Below are positions 1-41,590 of a DNA stretch of 64,000 nucleotides, piece by piece. Source of the stretch: a virus; the IMG/VR virus record IMGVR_UViG_3300025174_000008, positions 1-64,000 of that record; one strand, given 5' to 3'. Within the stretch, counting starts at the first letter, position 1; every line of letters begins with the position of its first letter. A model generated the notes under the pieces. That model had not been told where the DNA came from. It made no database searches and worked only from the letters and a program-made list of their open reading frames with translations. The position numbers and the translations under genes are program-made.

Positions 1-397
1 CTCCACTGCCTCCGCATCCTGTTCTCCGTTCCGACTGCAGCACCCCTGCACGACGAGCCGCCCGACGAGTGGGCTCCACTGCCTCCGCATCCTGTTCTCC
101 GTTCCGACTGCAGCACCCCTGCACGACGAGCCGCCCGACGAGTGGGCTCCACTGCCTCCGCATCCTGTTCTCCGTTCCGACAATGACCCGCTCACCCACG
201 CGCACGCTGGTCGGTATGCTCCACTGCCTCCGCATCCTGTTCTCCGTTCCGACCGGTCCAGTCCTCCCTAGGAGGCGGAGCCCCATCGAGCTCCACTGCC
301 TCCGCATCCTGTTCTCCGTTCCGACTGAACGCTCGCCTCGACGATCAACCCGCACGGCACCGCTCCACTGCCTCCGCATCCTGTTCTCCGTTCCGAC
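1..397 (-). CRISPR. CRISPR array, 6 repeats and 5 spacers visible, cut by window start
   Basis: Six copies of a perfectly conserved 36-nt repeat lie at 1-35 (first base off-window), 73-108, 146-181, 218-253, 290-325 and 362-397. Spacers are 37, 37, 36, 36 and 36 nt at 36-72, 109-145, 182-217, 254-289 and 326-361. Spacers 36-72 and 109-145 are identical. Read on the minus strand, the same strand as the effector gene, the repeat starts GTCGGAACGGAG and ends GCAGTGGAGC. This repeat is purine-rich and forms only a weak 3-bp hairpin (TGC/GCA), so an extra RNA may be needed for processing. The 5' GTCGGAAC matches, from memory, the start of a CasPhi (Cas12j) repeat. More repeats probably lie before the window. 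Transcription strand is inferred from the effector gene. Confidence 0.97.
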
Positions 398-452
398 CCG
401 CTCGCTAGAACCTCCACGATCCTGATGCGTTGCGCAGCAACTTGCGAGCGGG
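397..452. ncRNA. Structured segment abutting array: leader or tracr/scoutRNA-like candidate
   Basis: A 9-bp perfect stem (397-405 with 444-452) closes a region containing a second hairpin (429-433 with 437-441, loop GCA). Inside the loop, CCTCCACGATCCTG at 411-424 resembles the middle of the repeat. Transcribed on the plus strand it could pair with a minus-strand crRNA through CAGGAT/ATCCTG (6 bp) and GGAGG/CCTCC (5 bp), separated by a small internal loop. A T5 run follows at about 469-473. It could equally be a degenerate repeat or the array leader. The role is inferred from pairing only. Confidence 0.35.
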
Positions 453-24294: not shown

Positions 24295-24752
24295 AGACCT
24301 TCCGCGTCGAATTCAACGCCGCTGGACATGTGACCTCGTGCATCGAGCTCGACCGCGGAGCGCCAGACTCGGTCACGCTCGTCTATGTCCAAGCGACCTC
24401 CGCCGACGCAGCAAAAGCCAAAGCCGAGCGGATTCGTCAAAGACTTCGTACGCAGGCGCGTAGGCAGGAGTACCGCGCACAGGGCCTATGCCCGTATTGC
24501 GGACGAACCCCGCAATCGGGGATGGTCAAATGCGAGACTTGTCTTGTCTCTGCGCGGGAAAGAAACGACTCACGGCAGCGGCCCACCCGAAGCGCCCAGC
24601 ATCTGGCCCTCCGCGCGTCCAAAGAGCAGCGCGAGCGTCTCGCAACGCTACTCGAGGTCAAGCGTCAGTGGCGGAGCACCGATAGCGACGATGCGTTTAT
24701 CGCTTGGTTGGACGCTGAAATCTCAAAGCTACTCGAGAGGAAGGCTGCGTGA
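24291..24752 (+). CDS. Zinc-finger protein, 153 aa
   Basis: Beta-rich N-terminus, then a Cys4 motif CPYCGRTPQSGMVKCETC and a basic helical C-terminus. Likely DNA-binding. Not assigned to a family. Confidence 0.6.
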   Translation: MKTFRVEFNAAGHVTSCIELDRGAPDSVTLVYVQATSADAAKAKAERIRQRLRTQARRQEYRAQGLCPYCGRTPQSGMVKCETCLVSARERNDSRQRPTRSAQHLALRASKEQRERLATLLEVKRQWRSTDSDDAFIAWLDAEISKLLERKAA

Positions 24753-25171
24753 TGGACTTCCGCAACGCCAAGCTCTTCATCGACGGCACCGAGATCCCGG
24801 TCGAGAACGTGCAGATCGGTTACGACACCGCGAGCGGCCCGGACCACAGTGTGGTTTCAATGGTAACCGGATTAGCCCAAGGGAATTTGGGCGCTTTTCG
24901 AGGTTTCCTGGAGTTAATGGAGGCGGCCGAAAGTTCGGTGAAGGAGGAGCTCGCGATTCGGAGCGGTCGAATCGTGCAGGTCACTGGATACCGCGGAGAC
25001 TTCGCGGTTTACATCATCGGCCGGCGCAAACGGAAGTTCGGTGGCGGCTGGGCCGTTGTGATTACCAAAACACTCGTGGGCAAAGCGGTTTGGTTACGCT
25101 CCCCTAGCCGCCCGTTCCGTTCTATCAAGTCGGCAAGAAGGGCGCTGGATAGGAAAGGAGTCGGAACGTGA
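24752..25171 (+). CDS. Hypothetical phage protein, 139 aa
   Basis: ATG at 24752 (MDFRNAKLFIDGTEIPVENV). Small beta-sheet domain, then AVYIIGRRKRKFGGGWAVVI and a basic tail. The TGA is in a GTGA overlap with the next gene. Not recognised. Confidence 0.6.
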   Translation: MDFRNAKLFIDGTEIPVENVQIGYDTASGPDHSVVSMVTGLAQGNLGAFRGFLELMEAAESSVKEELAIRSGRIVQVTGYRGDFAVYIIGRRKRKFGGGWAVVITKTLVGKAVWLRSPSRPFRSIKSARRALDRKGVGT

Positions 25172-25593
25172 CATGGTTACGGCTCGATGACGGGTTCGCG
25201 CACCATAAAAAGGTGGCTCCGCTCACTGATCGGGCTTTCCGTTTGCACGTTACAGCAATGCTACACTGTGCAGATCAGTTGACCGACGGATTCGTCGGAG
25301 ACGCCATTCCGGAGTGTCTAACCAAGGCCCCGCAGGGAAAATCGCTAGTCGCGGCCATCAAAGAGCTTGTGGATATTGGGCTCTGGGAGCCTGTTGATGG
25401 GGGGTGGCTCATTCATGACTTCGCAGACTGGAATCCGTCGTCAGACTCTGTTCGCACCAAGCGGGCCGCTGCGTGCGAACGAATGAAGCGAGCTCGTTCG
25501 CAGAATGTTCGCGCGAACACGTCGCGAAGTTCGCCAGAACCTGTCTCAACCCCGTCCCCGTCCCCGTCTGATGGAAGGATTGATCTCTCATGA
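25168..25593 (+). CDS. Phage replisome organiser-like protein
   Basis: 141 aa from GTG at 25168. WLRLDDGFAHHKKVAPLTDR, then FRLHVTAMLHCADQLTDGFV and HDFADWNPSSDSV follow the N-terminal winged-helix domain of phage replication initiator/DnaD-like proteins; the tail is Ser/Pro-rich. Located just upstream of the helicase genes. Confidence 0.75.
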   Translation: MTWLRLDDGFAHHKKVAPLTDRAFRLHVTAMLHCADQLTDGFVGDAIPECLTKAPQGKSLVAAIKELVDIGLWEPVDGGWLIHDFADWNPSSDSVRTKRAAACERMKRARSQNVRANTSRSSPEPVSTPSPSPSDGRIDLS

Positions 25594-26198
25594 ATCTTAT
25601 TTCTAGGCCTGATCCGGATCTACCTGTCAGGTCAGGATCCCGTCCGCACGAGGGAGCTCAAACCGAGCCCGCTATCCCCTGCCCGCTATCCCTCGCTCTG
25701 ACCGAAGAGCAGGTCTACACGCTGGTGGCCCGGTGCGGCATGCCGGAATGGGCCATCGAGCCGTGCCTGCAGGACTTCCTGCTGGGGGCAACCGCGGGGT
25801 CTGAGGTTCGCCCTCTGGACGTCTGGCGCCGGTGGGCCGCCAAGCACGTTTGGTCGATGTGGCAGACCCCTGGGAGGCGCCCGCTCAAGCCAGAGGCTAC
25901 GCTGGACCCAGCAGACGCATCGGCTCTCCGCCGGGCACGCCGGGCCGCCCTTCGCTCCGAACGGGAGCGGTCCGAGGAGGCGTGGCGGAGGTTCACGGCC
26001 GGGTCATGCCTGCCCACCCCGGAGCAGGCGTCCCAGTTCGCGAAGATCGGAATCAAGATCCCGTCTCGGTCGAAAGAGCCCCGTGGCGCCACAGGTTTGA
26101 GTCCCACCGAGCGAGAGGGGGCCAACGCTGGGGTCAGGACGTCCGAGGCTCACAGCGCGTCTGAGGGGCTCCTGGGCGGCAGCAAGGGGGCGGAGTGA
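25590..26198 (+). CDS. Replication-associated protein, putative helicase loader
   Basis: 202 aa. WAIEPCLQDFLLGATAGSEV, RPLDVWRRWAAKHVWSMWQT, then an Arg-rich helix: the arrangement is like the C-terminal part of phage replication proteins that load DnaB. Its first 100 bases contain a 21-bp sequence repeated at 44174 and a direct repeat, so an origin may lie within the gene as in lambda O. Confidence 0.55.
   Translation: MNLISRPDPDLPVRSGSRPHEGAQTEPAIPCPLSLALTEEQVYTLVARCGMPEWAIEPCLQDFLLGATAGSEVRPLDVWRRWAAKHVWSMWQTPGRRPLKPEATLDPADASALRRARRAALRSERERSEEAWRRFTAGSCLPTPEQASQFAKIGIKIPSRSKEPRGATGLSPTEREGANAGVRTSEAHSASEGLLGGSKGAE
25622..25642. repeat. 21-bp repeat, copy 1 (also 44174-44194)
   Basis: Identical 21-mer containing the palindrome ACCTG-T-CAGGT followed by CAGGATCCCG; exact second copy at 44174-44194. 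Shortly after it, GCCCGCTATCCC occurs twice (25669-25694). An origin or regulatory site inside the replication gene is possible. Confidence 0.7.
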
Positions 26199-26374
26199 CC
26201 AGAACTCAACAGGCTAACCTGATTCTCTCGAAGTTGAGCCGTAGGCTGAGACTGGTTGTTGGGCCGAGCCATCCAGATCCGTTGGATCTGCAGTCCACAA
26301 AAGTGCATCCGGATCGTGCCGTATTGCTCGGAGAGCATCTCCCACGGGTGAGGCACCGGGCGGTGAAAACGTGA
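26195..26374 (+). CDS. Small protein, 59 aa, between replication genes
   Basis: GTG start at 26195 and stop at 26374 both form GTGA overlaps with the flanking genes, supporting translation. Basic (LILSKLSRRLRLVVGPSHPD). Function unknown. Confidence 0.5.
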   Translation: MTRTQQANLILSKLSRRLRLVVGPSHPDPLDLQSTKVHPDRAVLLGEHLPRVRHRAVKT

Positions 26375-27903
26375 CCGACCCCGCCACGACCGCCGCCCGC
26401 CGCGCCCCGGAGCCGGGTCCCACAGTTGGCAGAGTCCCACCGGCGGACCTGGACGCCGAGGCTACGGTGCTGTCCGCGGTCCTGCTGTCCGCAGAGCTAG
26501 CCGACGAAGTAGCGACCTTCTTCCGGCCCGAGCACTGCTATTCGAACGCCAACCGGATCATCCTCGAAGCAGCATGGTCGCTCCGTGAGACCGGTAGACC
26601 CGTGGACCAAGTGTCCATTGCTGGGTGGCTCAGGGACCGCGGAAAGCTTGAGCAGATTGGCGGCACCCCCTACCTCGCCCAGGTCGTGGACGCGACGCCG
26701 GCCGTTGCCAACGTCGAGACGCACGCCAGGCGACTAGTCGAGCTTTGGCGACAGCGACAGCTCATACAGGAATGCCAAGACACGGCCGCTGAGGGTTACG
26801 GGGCCGTACAGAACGTCCAGCAGTACATCGACCAGCACGAGCAGAAGGTCTTCGAAATCGCCCACACGTCGGACAGGACGGCGATCGTCCCGGTCAAGGA
26901 CGTGATGGTCGAGTCGTTCAAGATCATCTCGGTGGCAAGTCAGACTGGCGGCGGAGTATCGGGAGTCCCGACCGGGTTCACCGAGATCGATCGGAAGACC
27001 ACAGGGATGCACAAGGGTGACTTGTTCATCGTCGCTGGTAGGCCGGGGATGGGCAAATCAGGTCTTGCGCTGAATATCGCCATCAACGTCGCTCGGCCGA
27101 AGAGCTCAGGCTTCTCCACCGATCCGCTTGGAAATCCAGTTCCACTAACCCCAGGCAAAGGGGTCGCGTTCTTCAGTCTGGAGATGCCCAAGGAGCAACT
27201 CGGTATGCGTCTGATGGCCAGCGAGGGGCGCGTTGACTTAGCGCGTATACGCTCCGGACAGACGCGCTCTGAGGACTGGGGGAAACTCACCGATGCTGCT
27301 GCACTCATCGGACTAATGCCAATCTGGATCGATGACACTCCGGCGATCACACTGCTCGAGGTTCGGGCGAAGGTGCGACGGATTCAGGCAGAGCTCGCGC
27401 GAGCTACGGATGACTCTGGTCTGCCCAATGAGTTGGGGTTGGTCGTTGTTGATTACCTACAGTTGATGCATGGGCGTCGGGATGCCCACAGCCGCGAACA
27501 AGAGATCAGTGAGCTTTCACGTGGGATGAAGCAGTTGGCGAAGGAACTCAAGGTTCCGGTGATGGCGCTTTCACAGTTAAACCGGTCCGTCGAAACACGC
27601 GCCACAAAGGACAAGCGCCCGCAGCTAAGTGACCTCCGTGAGAGCGGCGCTATCGAACAAGATGCCGACACGATTCTGTTCATCTATCGGGACGAGTACT
27701 ACTTCAAGAACGAGAGCGTTGACCGAGGTATCGCCGAGATCATCATCGCGAAGCAACGGAACGGCCCCACTGGTGTGGTAAAGGCCAAGTTCTCAAGCGA
27801 GTACACTCGCTTTGATAACCTAACGATCGGTGAGTCCGACGAATTTGATAGCTACGCAGAAGAATCGCGACTCGATGACGAGAGGCCTCGTGGAGGTTTC
27901 TGA
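26371..27903 (+). CDS. dnaB: DnaB-like replicative DNA helicase
   Basis: 510 aa from GTG at 26371. N-terminal domain LDAEATVLSAVLLS through TPAVANVETHARR; RecA-fold domain with Walker A AGRPGMGKSG, Walker B LVVVDYLQLM, SQLNRSVETR and the arginine finger region KQRNGPTG. It unwinds the fork as a hexamer. The C-terminal tail ends DDERPRGGF, shared with the paralog downstream. Confidence 0.95.
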   Translation: MTDPATTAARRAPEPGPTVGRVPPADLDAEATVLSAVLLSAELADEVATFFRPEHCYSNANRIILEAAWSLRETGRPVDQVSIAGWLRDRGKLEQIGGTPYLAQVVDATPAVANVETHARRLVELWRQRQLIQECQDTAAEGYGAVQNVQQYIDQHEQKVFEIAHTSDRTAIVPVKDVMVESFKIISVASQTGGGVSGVPTGFTEIDRKTTGMHKGDLFIVAGRPGMGKSGLALNIAINVARPKSSGFSTDPLGNPVPLTPGKGVAFFSLEMPKEQLGMRLMASEGRVDLARIRSGQTRSEDWGKLTDAAALIGLMPIWIDDTPAITLLEVRAKVRRIQAELARATDDSGLPNELGLVVVDYLQLMHGRRDAHSREQEISELSRGMKQLAKELKVPVMALSQLNRSVETRATKDKRPQLSDLRESGAIEQDADTILFIYRDEYYFKNESVDRGIAEIIIAKQRNGPTGVVKAKFSSEYTRFDNLTIGESDEFDSYAEESRLDDERPRGGF

Positions 27904-27907
27904 AACG

Positions 27908-29128
27908 ATGAACAGAGAACAATATCAAGAGTATCTAGCTTCAGAGTGGTGGATAACACGCAGCACCAGCATCCGGGCGCGGTCCGGAGGACAGTGTGAA
28001 ATATGTCAGCGAGAACTATGCACACAGGTGCATCATCTGAGTTACGCACATATAGGTGCGGAACGGGACGACGAACTGGTGGCTGTGTGCGACTTCTGTC
28101 ACCGAAATCTACACGGACGAATTCCCAGCCCCAGAATTCTGTCGGTTGAAGAGCTTCTGCGATCATCAGGTCAAAGATCGGTATCGGTGGAACATCAAGG
28201 AGTCATCACCACCGGCAACTGGAGAATAGACCGCCATACCGGCGGCATTCAGCCAGGACACGCTTGGATCCTGGCGGCCGAAACATCGTGGGGGAAAAGT
28301 GCGTTTTCGCTATCGGTAGCCGACGAGAACCTGAAACTCGGCAAGGTCGTGTTGGTGGTCGCAACGGAAGACGACGAGTCGATTTATGGCGATCGATTAC
28401 TAGCCCGCCGTTCAGGCGTGGATGCAACGAAGATCCGAGACCACGCGCTCGATAATGTAGACCTGGCCAAGATCAACACCGTCATCCAAAAAGCCGAACT
28501 AACACCGATCTATTTGGATGGCCGGGATGTTCCAGAGGACCAGTTGTGTAAACAGATTGGTGCCATCGTCAAGGAGTACGGAGTCGCGCTAGTCATCGTC
28601 GACTACCTCCAAACAATACCAGCGTCCCACCGCTATCAAGACGAGCGAGTCCGATTCCGGGAGACCGCTCAGCGCTTGACCCACACCTGTAAGGCACTGA
28701 AGACGCCCCTGATCATCTGCTCGCAGATCACGCCAGATGAGTCCGGGAAGATGCCCGGAAAATACCGTGTACGAGAGAGCAAAGACGTTGTGCACGCGGC
28801 CGAGGCGGTGCTCATTGGCTTCGAGCTCCAGAGCGAGTGGACGGACCCAAAGGACCAGCATCTACCAGAGCACGAGAGGCGAAAGATTGCTGCTGGAACC
28901 AAGTGCATCAACATCGACAAGGCCAAGGTCGGGACGAGGGGCGTTGTGGCGCTGAATTGGAACCAGATCACTGCTAGCTTCGATGCTGAGTATCGGCGCG
29001 ACGGGTCATACGACTACCTGGACCAATACCGCGACCCTGATGGTGCCCCAACCATTGACGACGCAGCCATGACCGACGCTGACTTCGAAGTACCCATTCC
29101 AGATGAGCGCCCGCGAGGAGGCTACTGA
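27908..29128 (+). CDS. HNH-DnaB-like fusion ATPase
   Basis: 406 aa. Residues ~1-85 form an HNH/zinc domain: C30/C33, H42-H43 (VHHLSY), C61/C64 and H69 (VCDFCHRNLHG). Residues ~95-350 form a DnaB/RecA-like ATPase: Walker A AETSWGKS (124-131), Walker B ALVIVDYLQT, ICSQITPDESG. The DnaB N-terminal primase-binding domain is absent. The last residues PDERPRGGY repeat the tail of the DnaB 5 bases upstream. Possibly a fork-associated nuclease-translocase; function not known to me. Confidence 0.85.
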   Translation: MNREQYQEYLASEWWITRSTSIRARSGGQCEICQRELCTQVHHLSYAHIGAERDDELVAVCDFCHRNLHGRIPSPRILSVEELLRSSGQRSVSVEHQGVITTGNWRIDRHTGGIQPGHAWILAAETSWGKSAFSLSVADENLKLGKVVLVVATEDDESIYGDRLLARRSGVDATKIRDHALDNVDLAKINTVIQKAELTPIYLDGRDVPEDQLCKQIGAIVKEYGVALVIVDYLQTIPASHRYQDERVRFRETAQRLTHTCKALKTPLIICSQITPDESGKMPGKYRVRESKDVVHAAEAVLIGFELQSEWTDPKDQHLPEHERRKIAAGTKCINIDKAKVGTRGVVALNWNQITASFDAEYRRDGSYDYLDQYRDPDGAPTIDDAAMTDADFEVPIPDERPRGGY

Positions 29129-29361
29129 TGGCTGACCATTTATGGATCCTGCGACAACGAGACCAACAACGTGCACAGTACGGGTCGTATACCGGGTTCG
29201 TGGTGCGAGCTAACTCCGCGGTCGAAGCTAGGCAGTTGGCTGCGCAGGAAGCGTCAAGCGAAAAACCGGAGTGCTGGATCAACACGAAGACTTCGACCTG
29301 CGTACCCCTCTGGGACGAGGGTCCATCCGAGATCATCATGGCTGAGGGGAACCAGGAGTAG
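29128..29361 (+). CDS. Hypothetical phage protein, 77 aa
   Basis: MADHLWILRQRDQQRAQYGS..., with GFVVRANSAVEARQLAAQEA resembling small phage proteins that follow replication genes. ATG overlaps the previous stop by one base. Function unknown. Confidence 0.65.
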   Translation: MADHLWILRQRDQQRAQYGSYTGFVVRANSAVEARQLAAQEASSEKPECWINTKTSTCVPLWDEGPSEIIMAEGNQE

Positions 29362-29366
29362 CTACC

Positions 29367-30005
29367 ATGCCAATTGACCAATCCTGGCGAGACAACGTCT
29401 ACATCAAAGCTCGAGAGTACCTCGCCACTCGCGGACTCGACGGGGCAACGTCGACCGAGATCGCCTACTCGATCGCGGGTGACGGCGCCGAGAAGGTGCG
29501 GGCCACCATTTGCGGGGCGACCGCACACGGCGGCATCGTGGCCTACGGCATGGCGTGCCGGAAGCATCGCTCGGACCACCCACAGGGAAACCACGTGTAT
29601 CACCTAGCCGAGCGTGCTGAAGCGGTGGACGCCCACAGGATTGAGTGCACCCGATGCCGTGAGCAGAAACCTCGTCTCGAATTTGGGTGCGTCAACCGCG
29701 GGTGCTCAGAGCTGCTCAAGATCTGCAATGCGTGCACCGACACCTTGAACCCCGAAGAGCGCCGGATATCGAGAGAGGAACGGGTGCGGAAGTGGCACCA
29801 AACACACCGCATCGCCACGGGTGAGGATGCTCGGAATTCCGTCGACTACCAGTCACCCCGGCGCCGGGTTCCGATCTGCAAGGTGTGCTACGACCTCCCA
29901 CACGCGAGACCCAAAACCGGGCTTTGCAAGTGCGGGAGACCGCGGTACGAAGAGGCGCTCCCACCGCTTCAAGAGCGGAGCTTCGACAGGGTGGCGGTGC
30001 CTTGA
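29367..30005 (+). CDS. wHTH and double zinc-ribbon protein upstream of DNA MTase
   Basis: 212 aa. N-terminal winged-helix-like domain (GATSTEIAYSIAGDGAEKVR), central Cys cluster CTRCREQKPRLEFGC and CNAC, and C-terminal ribbon RRRVPICKVCYDLPHARPKT then CKCGRPR ending FDRVAVP. That last module is a close paralog of the end of the 18071 protein. Both genes overlap the start of a DNA methyltransferase gene, so they are likely partners of the modification enzymes. Confidence 0.75.
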   Translation: MPIDQSWRDNVYIKAREYLATRGLDGATSTEIAYSIAGDGAEKVRATICGATAHGGIVAYGMACRKHRSDHPQGNHVYHLAERAEAVDAHRIECTRCREQKPRLEFGCVNRGCSELLKICNACTDTLNPEERRISREERVRKWHQTHRIATGEDARNSVDYQSPRRRVPICKVCYDLPHARPKTGLCKCGRPRYEEALPPLQERSFDRVAVP

Positions 30006-40603: not shown

Positions 40604-41175
40604 TTTGCATCCATGGTCGCGCGTTCGATGGCATCGGCCAAGGGCAGTTTTTTGCGCAAGCGGCCGACCAGGGTGAGGTCGATTACCGGGGTGGGCCCGC
40701 GTAGCGGCACCGCGAATTCGACCGTCAGCCCCGGGTCTGGCTCGGGCGAGGCATCGGGCAATGGTGCCGGCGTAGGCTTGCGCGAGCGAGGCTTACGCGA
40801 GCGCTTGGCAGGCGCGTTCTCGGCAATGATTTGCGCGGCCATAGCGTTGGCACGGCTGACGAAATGCTCTTTGAGCTCTCGCAATTCTGCGGCCATGCTG
40901 GCGGCAGTCTCACGCTCAGCATCAAGAGCCGCTTCGAGAGATTCGAGCTCCCGCACGCGTTCGTCGGCCATGTCGCTGGCGATCGTCCGGGCCCGCTCCT
41001 CTGCCGACTCGTCCATCATCTCATCTACCCGGTTCAGTGTGTCGATAGCCTGCTCGTATTCCTGCTGGGTGAGCATCCGTCCGAGGAGATCCTCGACCTC
41101 CTGAATTTCAGGAATTTCGCGGTCGCGATAGAGCACGGCCACTCCGGCGGCGATGGTTTCGAGTAAGGCGTCCAT
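40600..41175 (-). CDS. Helical/coiled-coil protein, 191 aa
   Basis: ATG at 41175 (MDALLETIAAGVAVLYRDRE), with GGAG 9 bases upstream; a TTG at 41190 is a less likely start. Central coiled coil (RVRELESLEAALDAERETAA), a Lys/Arg/Pro linker, and a C-terminal GPTPVIDLTLVGRLRKKLPL. Not recognised. Confidence 0.65.
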   Translation of the reverse strand: MDALLETIAAGVAVLYRDREIPEIQEVEDLLGRMLTQQEYEQAIDTLNRVDEMMDESAEERARTIASDMADERVRELESLEAALDAERETAASMAAELRELKEHFVSRANAMAAQIIAENAPAKRSRKPRSRKPTPAPLPDASPEPDPGLTVEFAVPLRGPTPVIDLTLVGRLRKKLPLADAIERATMDAK

Positions 41176-41190
41176 GGGGGGTGACTCCAA

Positions 41191-41254
41191 CGGCCCAATC
41201 CCCGGGCCCGCGGTTGACCGCGAGAGCCGGGGCGAGCGCGTGACGATTGGGCCG
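41191..41254. other. Strongly structured intergenic element
   Basis: The whole gap folds: CGGCCCAATC (41191-41200) pairs with GATTGGGCCG (41245-41254); inside, CCCGG pairs with CCGGG and GCGG-TTGA-CCGC (41210-41221) forms the tip. Possible regulatory RNA or processing site between two operon genes. Confidence 0.6.
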
Positions 41255-41590
41255 CTAGCTCCGAGATTTGAACTCCACTGTTTGGTAAGGGTCGCCGGCT
41301 ACATGGCAAGCGGCGTAGACATCCGGGCTGAGCTCCCGAGCGACCCTGCCATGGTCTAGCCGGCGAGCCCCGGCGACCGTGGTTACTGCTACGATGCCCT
41401 CTAGGCCTTCGATTACCATGATTCCACGCTCGGCCAGCGCGAGGGCCGCCGGGCGGGCCTCCCCTTCGAGGGTCTTGAGCTCACGCTTGAGGTCCGCGAT
41501 CCGAGCGTACAGTCGAACGATCTTGGCCTGCTCGAGTGAGACGATCTGATGAGTCGGTGCTGAGACGACGAGTTGAGCTTTCCGTGCCAT
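41255..41590 (-). CDS. Hypothetical protein with coiled coil, 111 aa
   Basis: ATG at 41590 (MARKAQLVVSAPTHQIVSLE),  helix AKIVRLYARIADLKRELKTL. Not recognised. The 122 bases upstream hold an 8-bp GGGGCC hairpin near 41627-41652 but no gene. Confidence 0.65.
   Translation of the reverse strand: MARKAQLVVSAPTHQIVSLEQAKIVRLYARIADLKRELKTLEGEARPAALALAERGIMVIEGLEGIVAVTTVAGARRLDHGRVARELSPDVYAACHVAGDPYQTVEFKSRS

Follow-up and report, generated by a model that had tools for sequence, protein, structure and literature searches.

An apparent homing-type HNH nuclease domain fused to a primase-coupled helicase motor at the edge of an exchanged phage replication module

Homing nucleases have usually been described in introns, in inteins or as separate genes. 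HNH nucleases occur in phage replication modules (PMC12724721), co-conversion during homing has been documented (PMC2988022), and nuclease genes, including HNH genes, have been reported at the boundaries of inter-phage exchange (Barth et al. 2023, PMC10448857). Here, we describe a locus of an environmental phage in a 64,000-nucleotide stretch of the IMG/VR virus record IMGVR_UViG_3300025174_000008 (positions 1 to 64,000, hereafter “the window”), in which an HNH domain forms the N-terminus of a helicase-type protein. The reading we favor, with somewhat better than even confidence, is that a primase-coupled helicase, at a boundary of module exchange, acquired a homing-type HNH as its N-terminus, and that this HNH would cleave DNA and promote its own homing.

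The fusion gene lies on the plus strand, as do the other window genes and domains located below, at 27908-29128, where one ORF with an ATG start encodes 406 amino acids in the order HNH domain (~72 aa), linker and DnaB_C-type ATPase core. It starts 4 bases past the stop of a complete dnaB (26371-27903; 510 aa with both N and C domains by Pfam; TIGR00665, 4.4e-151), and a GGAGG within the last dnaB codons (27892-27896) is its likely ribosome-binding site. The HNH domain (residues 1-72, 27908-28123) is followed by a linker beginning PRILSVEELL (28124-28204) and by a RecA-like core (residues 100-359, 28205-28984) that matches Pfam DnaB_C (PF03796, E=1.3e-29), was modeled by AlphaFold with a pLDDT of about 78-92 and has DnaB as its nearest folds in Foldseek; the Pfam search returned no match to the DnaB N-terminal domain (PF00772) in the fusion protein. 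Walker A (AETSWGKS, 28277-28300) and Walker B (LVIVDYLQ, 28589-28612) are both present, with G129 and K130 of the former and D232, Y233 and Q235 of the latter invariant in the family alignment. A preliminary description of this DNA had recognized an ORF with C30/C33, VHHLSY (residues 41-46) and CDFCHRNLH (residues 61-69), a normal DnaB just upstream and conserved Walker motifs, all of which were confirmed.

The same dnaB to HNH-ATPase layout recurs in a related phage, L006, where HNH and motor again form a single ORF rather than a separate HNH gene and the fusion is 83% identical overall, for which reason we do not regard the fusion as a product of chance or an assembly joint. A chimeric assembly is unlikely, as L006 comes from another dataset, and an intein was rejected because there is no intein/Hint match, the HNH is N-terminal and the motor is uninterrupted. 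The fusion is carried by these two genomes only. No HNH-DnaB_C fusion was found elsewhere in the phage records examined or the literature searched, and two scans of 84,980 bacterial and archaeal genomes gave no relative; tblastn matches in BgVeeders33 and Archie that resembled full-length relatives proved to be ordinary DnaBs. DnaB (27870-27903) and the HNH-ATPase (29095-29128) also share the C-terminal tail DERPRGGF/Y, the codons of which include what is probably the ribosome-binding site for the gene downstream, and the dnaB of L006 stops just ahead of it. A role of this tail as a docking motif was dropped: since the probable Shine-Dalgarno sequence lies in its final codons, it needs no protein-level explanation.

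The N-terminal domain is predicted to adopt the nuclease-type HNH fold of a phage subfamily and may be catalytically active. Pfam PF01844 scores the domain alone at 16.2 bits, below its cut-off of 21.4, and PHROG HNH families match it at 3e-7 to 1e-3. In an alignment of 62 family sequences W15, C30, C33, H42, H43, Y46, C61 and H65 are invariant; the window protein keeps the zinc cysteine pairs (C30/C33/C61/C64) as well as H42, H43, E52, H65 and H69, and has D55/E56 where the canonical HNH motif has Asn, a position that is D/E in most of this subfamily. The HNH was unresolved in the full-length AlphaFold model (pLDDT <50, two HNH rows) and reached a mean pLDDT of 90 when refolded alone with 62 rows. 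The nearest solved folds of this model are the GVE2 HNH (5h0m) and Cas5-HNH (8yb6, 8zp7), at a Foldseek probability of 1.00 and an E-value of only 3e-3, and both are also among the nearest matches in a profile search against the PDB. Structure prediction, proposed in the preliminary description as a check, upheld its assignment of an N-terminal HNH domain. The missing Asn, the subthreshold Pfam score and the lack of several cysteines in a related domain of Lactobacillus phage ATCCB would suit a non-catalytic zinc domain that serves in docking or DNA binding, perhaps as a replacement for a primase zinc-binding domain, but the four retained histidines together with the four cysteines, and the HNH nucleases among the nearest folds and profile matches, make a purely structural zinc site quite improbable.

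The motor, in turn, is no DnaB from which the N-domain was stripped, but belongs to a separate phage clade that normally lies, HNH-less, behind a primase gene. In the tree, this ATPase clade splits from DnaB with 100/100 support and the HNH-bearing members are nested within it. Besides G001, a near-twin of the window phage, seven HNH-less relatives (L041-L047; L039 is the L041 contig) were recovered by scanning for motifs and by alignment search, and L051 entered the set of relatives through its HNH gene. A CHC2-type primase gene lies directly upstream of the motor in L042-L046, L051 and G001, and a Prim-Pol gene in L041; the motor of L047 has its own N-terminal region of ~100 residues in place of the primase arrangement of its relatives. 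The window motor is 32-43% identical to the distant family members and 89-96% identical to that of G001, and the family has DKxKxG versus KQRNG in DnaB, with Walker A and Walker B invariant along with other residues of the core. Most HNH-less relatives carry an N-terminal peptide of only ~40-60 aa where the window protein has its HNH. The peptide motif DENDxLxxGTLPxDP and the linker PRVLTVRDIL are common to most family members; in the window protein, the HNH takes the place of the peptide and is followed by the PRILSVEELL linker, which aligns as the homolog of PRVLTVRDIL. Of the earlier proposal that a DnaB-like ATPase carries an HNH in place of its N-terminal domain, the DnaB_C core thus stands, while the replacement of a DnaB N-terminal domain was not borne out in detail, as the motor comes from a primase-coupled family separate from DnaB. 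No primase lies directly upstream of the window fusion, where dnaB is found instead, and G002, a further genome compared, likewise has none upstream; primases of the PF01807 and PF09250 types were absent from both genomes, from which we infer that their DnaB probably uses host primase.

Comparison with L006 singles out the HNH as a mobile cassette (27868-28215), 340 of 348 bp of which are identical (97.7%) with flanks at 83% in dnaB and 71% in the ATPase. The two phages have a mean identity of 76% over 46.8 kb aligned, and the cassette is the best 300-bp window of that comparison (98.3%), the next separate one reaching 91.7%. The HNH has a dS of 0.04 against 0.94 for dnaB, and in the ATPase dS is saturated. 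The GC content of 27908-28204 is 51.2%, within the lowest 0.5% of the window (61%), GC3 is 0.41-0.47 in the HNH piece versus 0.67-0.71, and the composition and identity breaks coincide at the cassette. The HNH is thus a foreign piece that has moved recently between related phages. Both comparisons, with L006 and with G001, show a junction of the HNH-linker piece with the motor at 28198-28215. No allele with dnaB directly before the same ATPase and lacking the HNH occurs among the genomes compared, which counts against homing, and any insertion at a defined site is thus conjectural; the HNH-less ATPase alleles that were found sit behind a primase, not dnaB.

The near-twin G001 and the window phage (G000) are collinear, mostly 99-100% identical over ~100 kb and different mainly in a replication block (24317-28197). 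On the window side this block comprises the end of a small gene, a phage replication-initiation protein (25168-25593; phrog_2447), a 202-aa protein with no family match (25590-26198), for which a helicase-loader role can be guessed from position, dnaB and the HNH; on the G001 side the corresponding genes encode an HNH protein, an initiator and a primase of the CHC2/TOPRIM type, behind which the ATPase follows with no HNH. At this one locus the HNH is thus present in the window phage and L006 and absent in G001. G002 has a dnaB-type module at the same place, which points to this module as the probable ancestral state of the lineage and to G001 as the probable later recombinant. Elsewhere, the window phage has ~395 bp (41036-41429) that are absent in G001, and arrays of direct repeats with ~72-73-bp units lie near both record ends (window 1-400; record 104543-105763).

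Exchange of modules between phages can happen without any nuclease, which counts against homing, and phage modules exchange freely, so the HNH could be a passenger of ordinary mosaic recombination that owes its near-identity to the chance placement of a recombination tract. Homology between the window phage and G001 resumes at 28198, yet six third-codon-position differences follow in 28201-28318 and none further up to 29405; the crossover accordingly falls within 28319-29405, and an earlier placement exactly at the HNH edge was dropped. We nevertheless consider the passenger explanation improbable, as the tract shared with L006 is confined to the HNH and a little flanking sequence, and identity and base composition break together there.

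Further HNH genes were found in comparable settings. Related HNHs occur at 80 loci, most of which encode proteins of <200 aa with no recognized partner domain, many being small stand-alone HNHs. In L051 (2677-6087) a free-standing HNH, an initiator, a CHC2 primase and a DnaB-like motor follow one another in that order as four tightly packed or overlapping genes, and the initiator of L006 (2047-2658) has a further, C-terminal HNH (PF01844, 2.3e-9), which the window initiator lacks. Predicted HNH nucleases thus turn up at this replication operon again and again. L103 (1588-3708) encodes a complete dnaB and, 21 bp on, a 251-aa protein in which an HNH of the same subfamily is joined to a DnaB-N-like domain (PF00772, 2.7e-6); the arrangement is the same in L101, and the two contigs, 100% identical over their shared 4.7 kb, were counted once. 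They represent an unrelated phage and an independent case of an HNH on a helicase-type domain behind dnaB. Separately, Enterococcus and Lactobacillus phages (L018, 2992-3840; L020, 2875-3936) encode an N-terminal HNH of this subfamily followed by an unknown region of 200-260 aa; both genes lie near SSB genes, and the Lactobacillus copy lacks several zinc cysteines.

The L101/L103 case bears on the main rival to homing, namely a working nuclease-motor at the fork, in which a DnaB-like ring carries the HNH and nicks or trims DNA for phage replication, recombination or packaging. This rival also draws on the invariant motor residues, on purifying selection on the ATPase (pN 0.119 vs pS 0.77 against L006) and on the intact fusion in two phages; the motor conservation would fit a useful nuclease-motor but may reflect selection before the fusion. 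However, the near-twin G001 manages without the HNH, the HNH moves independently of the motor, and the usual partner of this motor family is a primase and not a nuclease, so that we rate a working nuclease-motor as rather unlikely. Taking the HNH on the primase-coupled motor of the window phage and L006 together with the HNH on the DnaB-N-like docking domain of L101/L103, it is also conceivable, if doubtful, that phage replicative motors are repeatedly fitted with an HNH behind dnaB, giving a fork-tethered nickase that would direct replication-module exchange during co-infection.

The preliminary description had offered three readings, the best fit among them being capture of the helicase by a homing element, since the HNH is present or absent at one locus, exceeds its flanks in identity, is foreign in composition and lies among replication genes at an exchange boundary; homing itself we infer from this pattern. 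Against it stand the lack of a recognized DNA-binding domain for the HNH and the existence of only two fusion genomes. The reading as a defense or counter-defense protein fared worst: nuclease plus translocase is a common defense layout and the HNH has a weak NCBIfam match to ZorE (0.15), but the gene lies inside a phage replication operon, the HNH proteins most closely related to it come from phages, in part from replication neighborhoods, and no supporting neighbor gene was found, which makes such a role very improbable. In the homing scenario, a DnaB-like motor, whose relatives pair with a primase much as if T7 gp4 were divided between two genes, would have gained an HNH of the free-standing type, from a common phage subfamily, as an in-frame N-terminus. 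The window motor would now sit behind an initiator-dnaB module that lacks the tested primase types, with DnaB as the likely fork helicase working with host primase. In mixed infections the fusion protein would most likely nick or cut alleles that lack the HNH, in or close to the junction of dnaB and motor, and repair from HNH-bearing genomes would copy the cassette with a short flank and sometimes the neighboring replication module, the motor presumably still working after the fusion.

What sets this case apart is that the HNH is fused in frame to a motor of the replicative type, which makes an apparent homing nuclease the N-terminal domain of a helicase-type protein and raises the question of whether a replicative motor can tolerate or use a nuclease. 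In addition, the natural pair of near-identical phages, set apart by an entire replication block on whose edge the HNH lies, makes HNH-driven replication-module exchange directly testable.

Compared with known systems, the window motor shares with DnaB the RecA-like C-terminal core, Walker A/B and DYLQ, but differs in lacking the DnaB N-domain, in having DKxKxG for KQRNG, in its separate clade and in a family that usually lies behind a primase. The HNH-less relatives, whose CHC2/TOPRIM or Prim-Pol gene overlaps the motor gene, resemble T7 gp4-type primase-helicases split into two genes, whereas T7 gp4 is one gene; the window phage yielded no primase of this kind, and its motor has the HNH at the N-terminal position. 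GVE2 HNH and Cas5-HNH are the closest in fold and profile, yet the former is a phage HNH linked to packaging and the latter belongs to a CRISPR Cascade subunit, while the partner here is a helicase-type motor. The homing endonuclease genes (T5orf172, HNH-IPA) that Barth et al. (2023, PMC10448857) treated in ICP1-like phages likewise put a nuclease domain at the border of a core-gene block that has been exchanged; the window case differs in its near-isogenic pair, the exchanged replication block and the in-frame motor fusion. Free-standing phage HNH homing endonucleases (T4 mob genes; I-HmuI-like and other Skunavirus HNHs; PMC2988022, PMC12724721) share with it the small HNH, presence or absence among close relatives, a position in or near replication genes and a cassette identity above that of the flanks. 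They are, however, separate genes, whereas the window HNH makes up the N-terminus of a helicase-type protein, has no recognizable DNA-binding domain of its own, in contrast to the T4 Mob proteins, and has no empty site among the genomes compared. On balance, we lean towards an HNH that would work like a free-standing homing endonuclease but is not classed as one.
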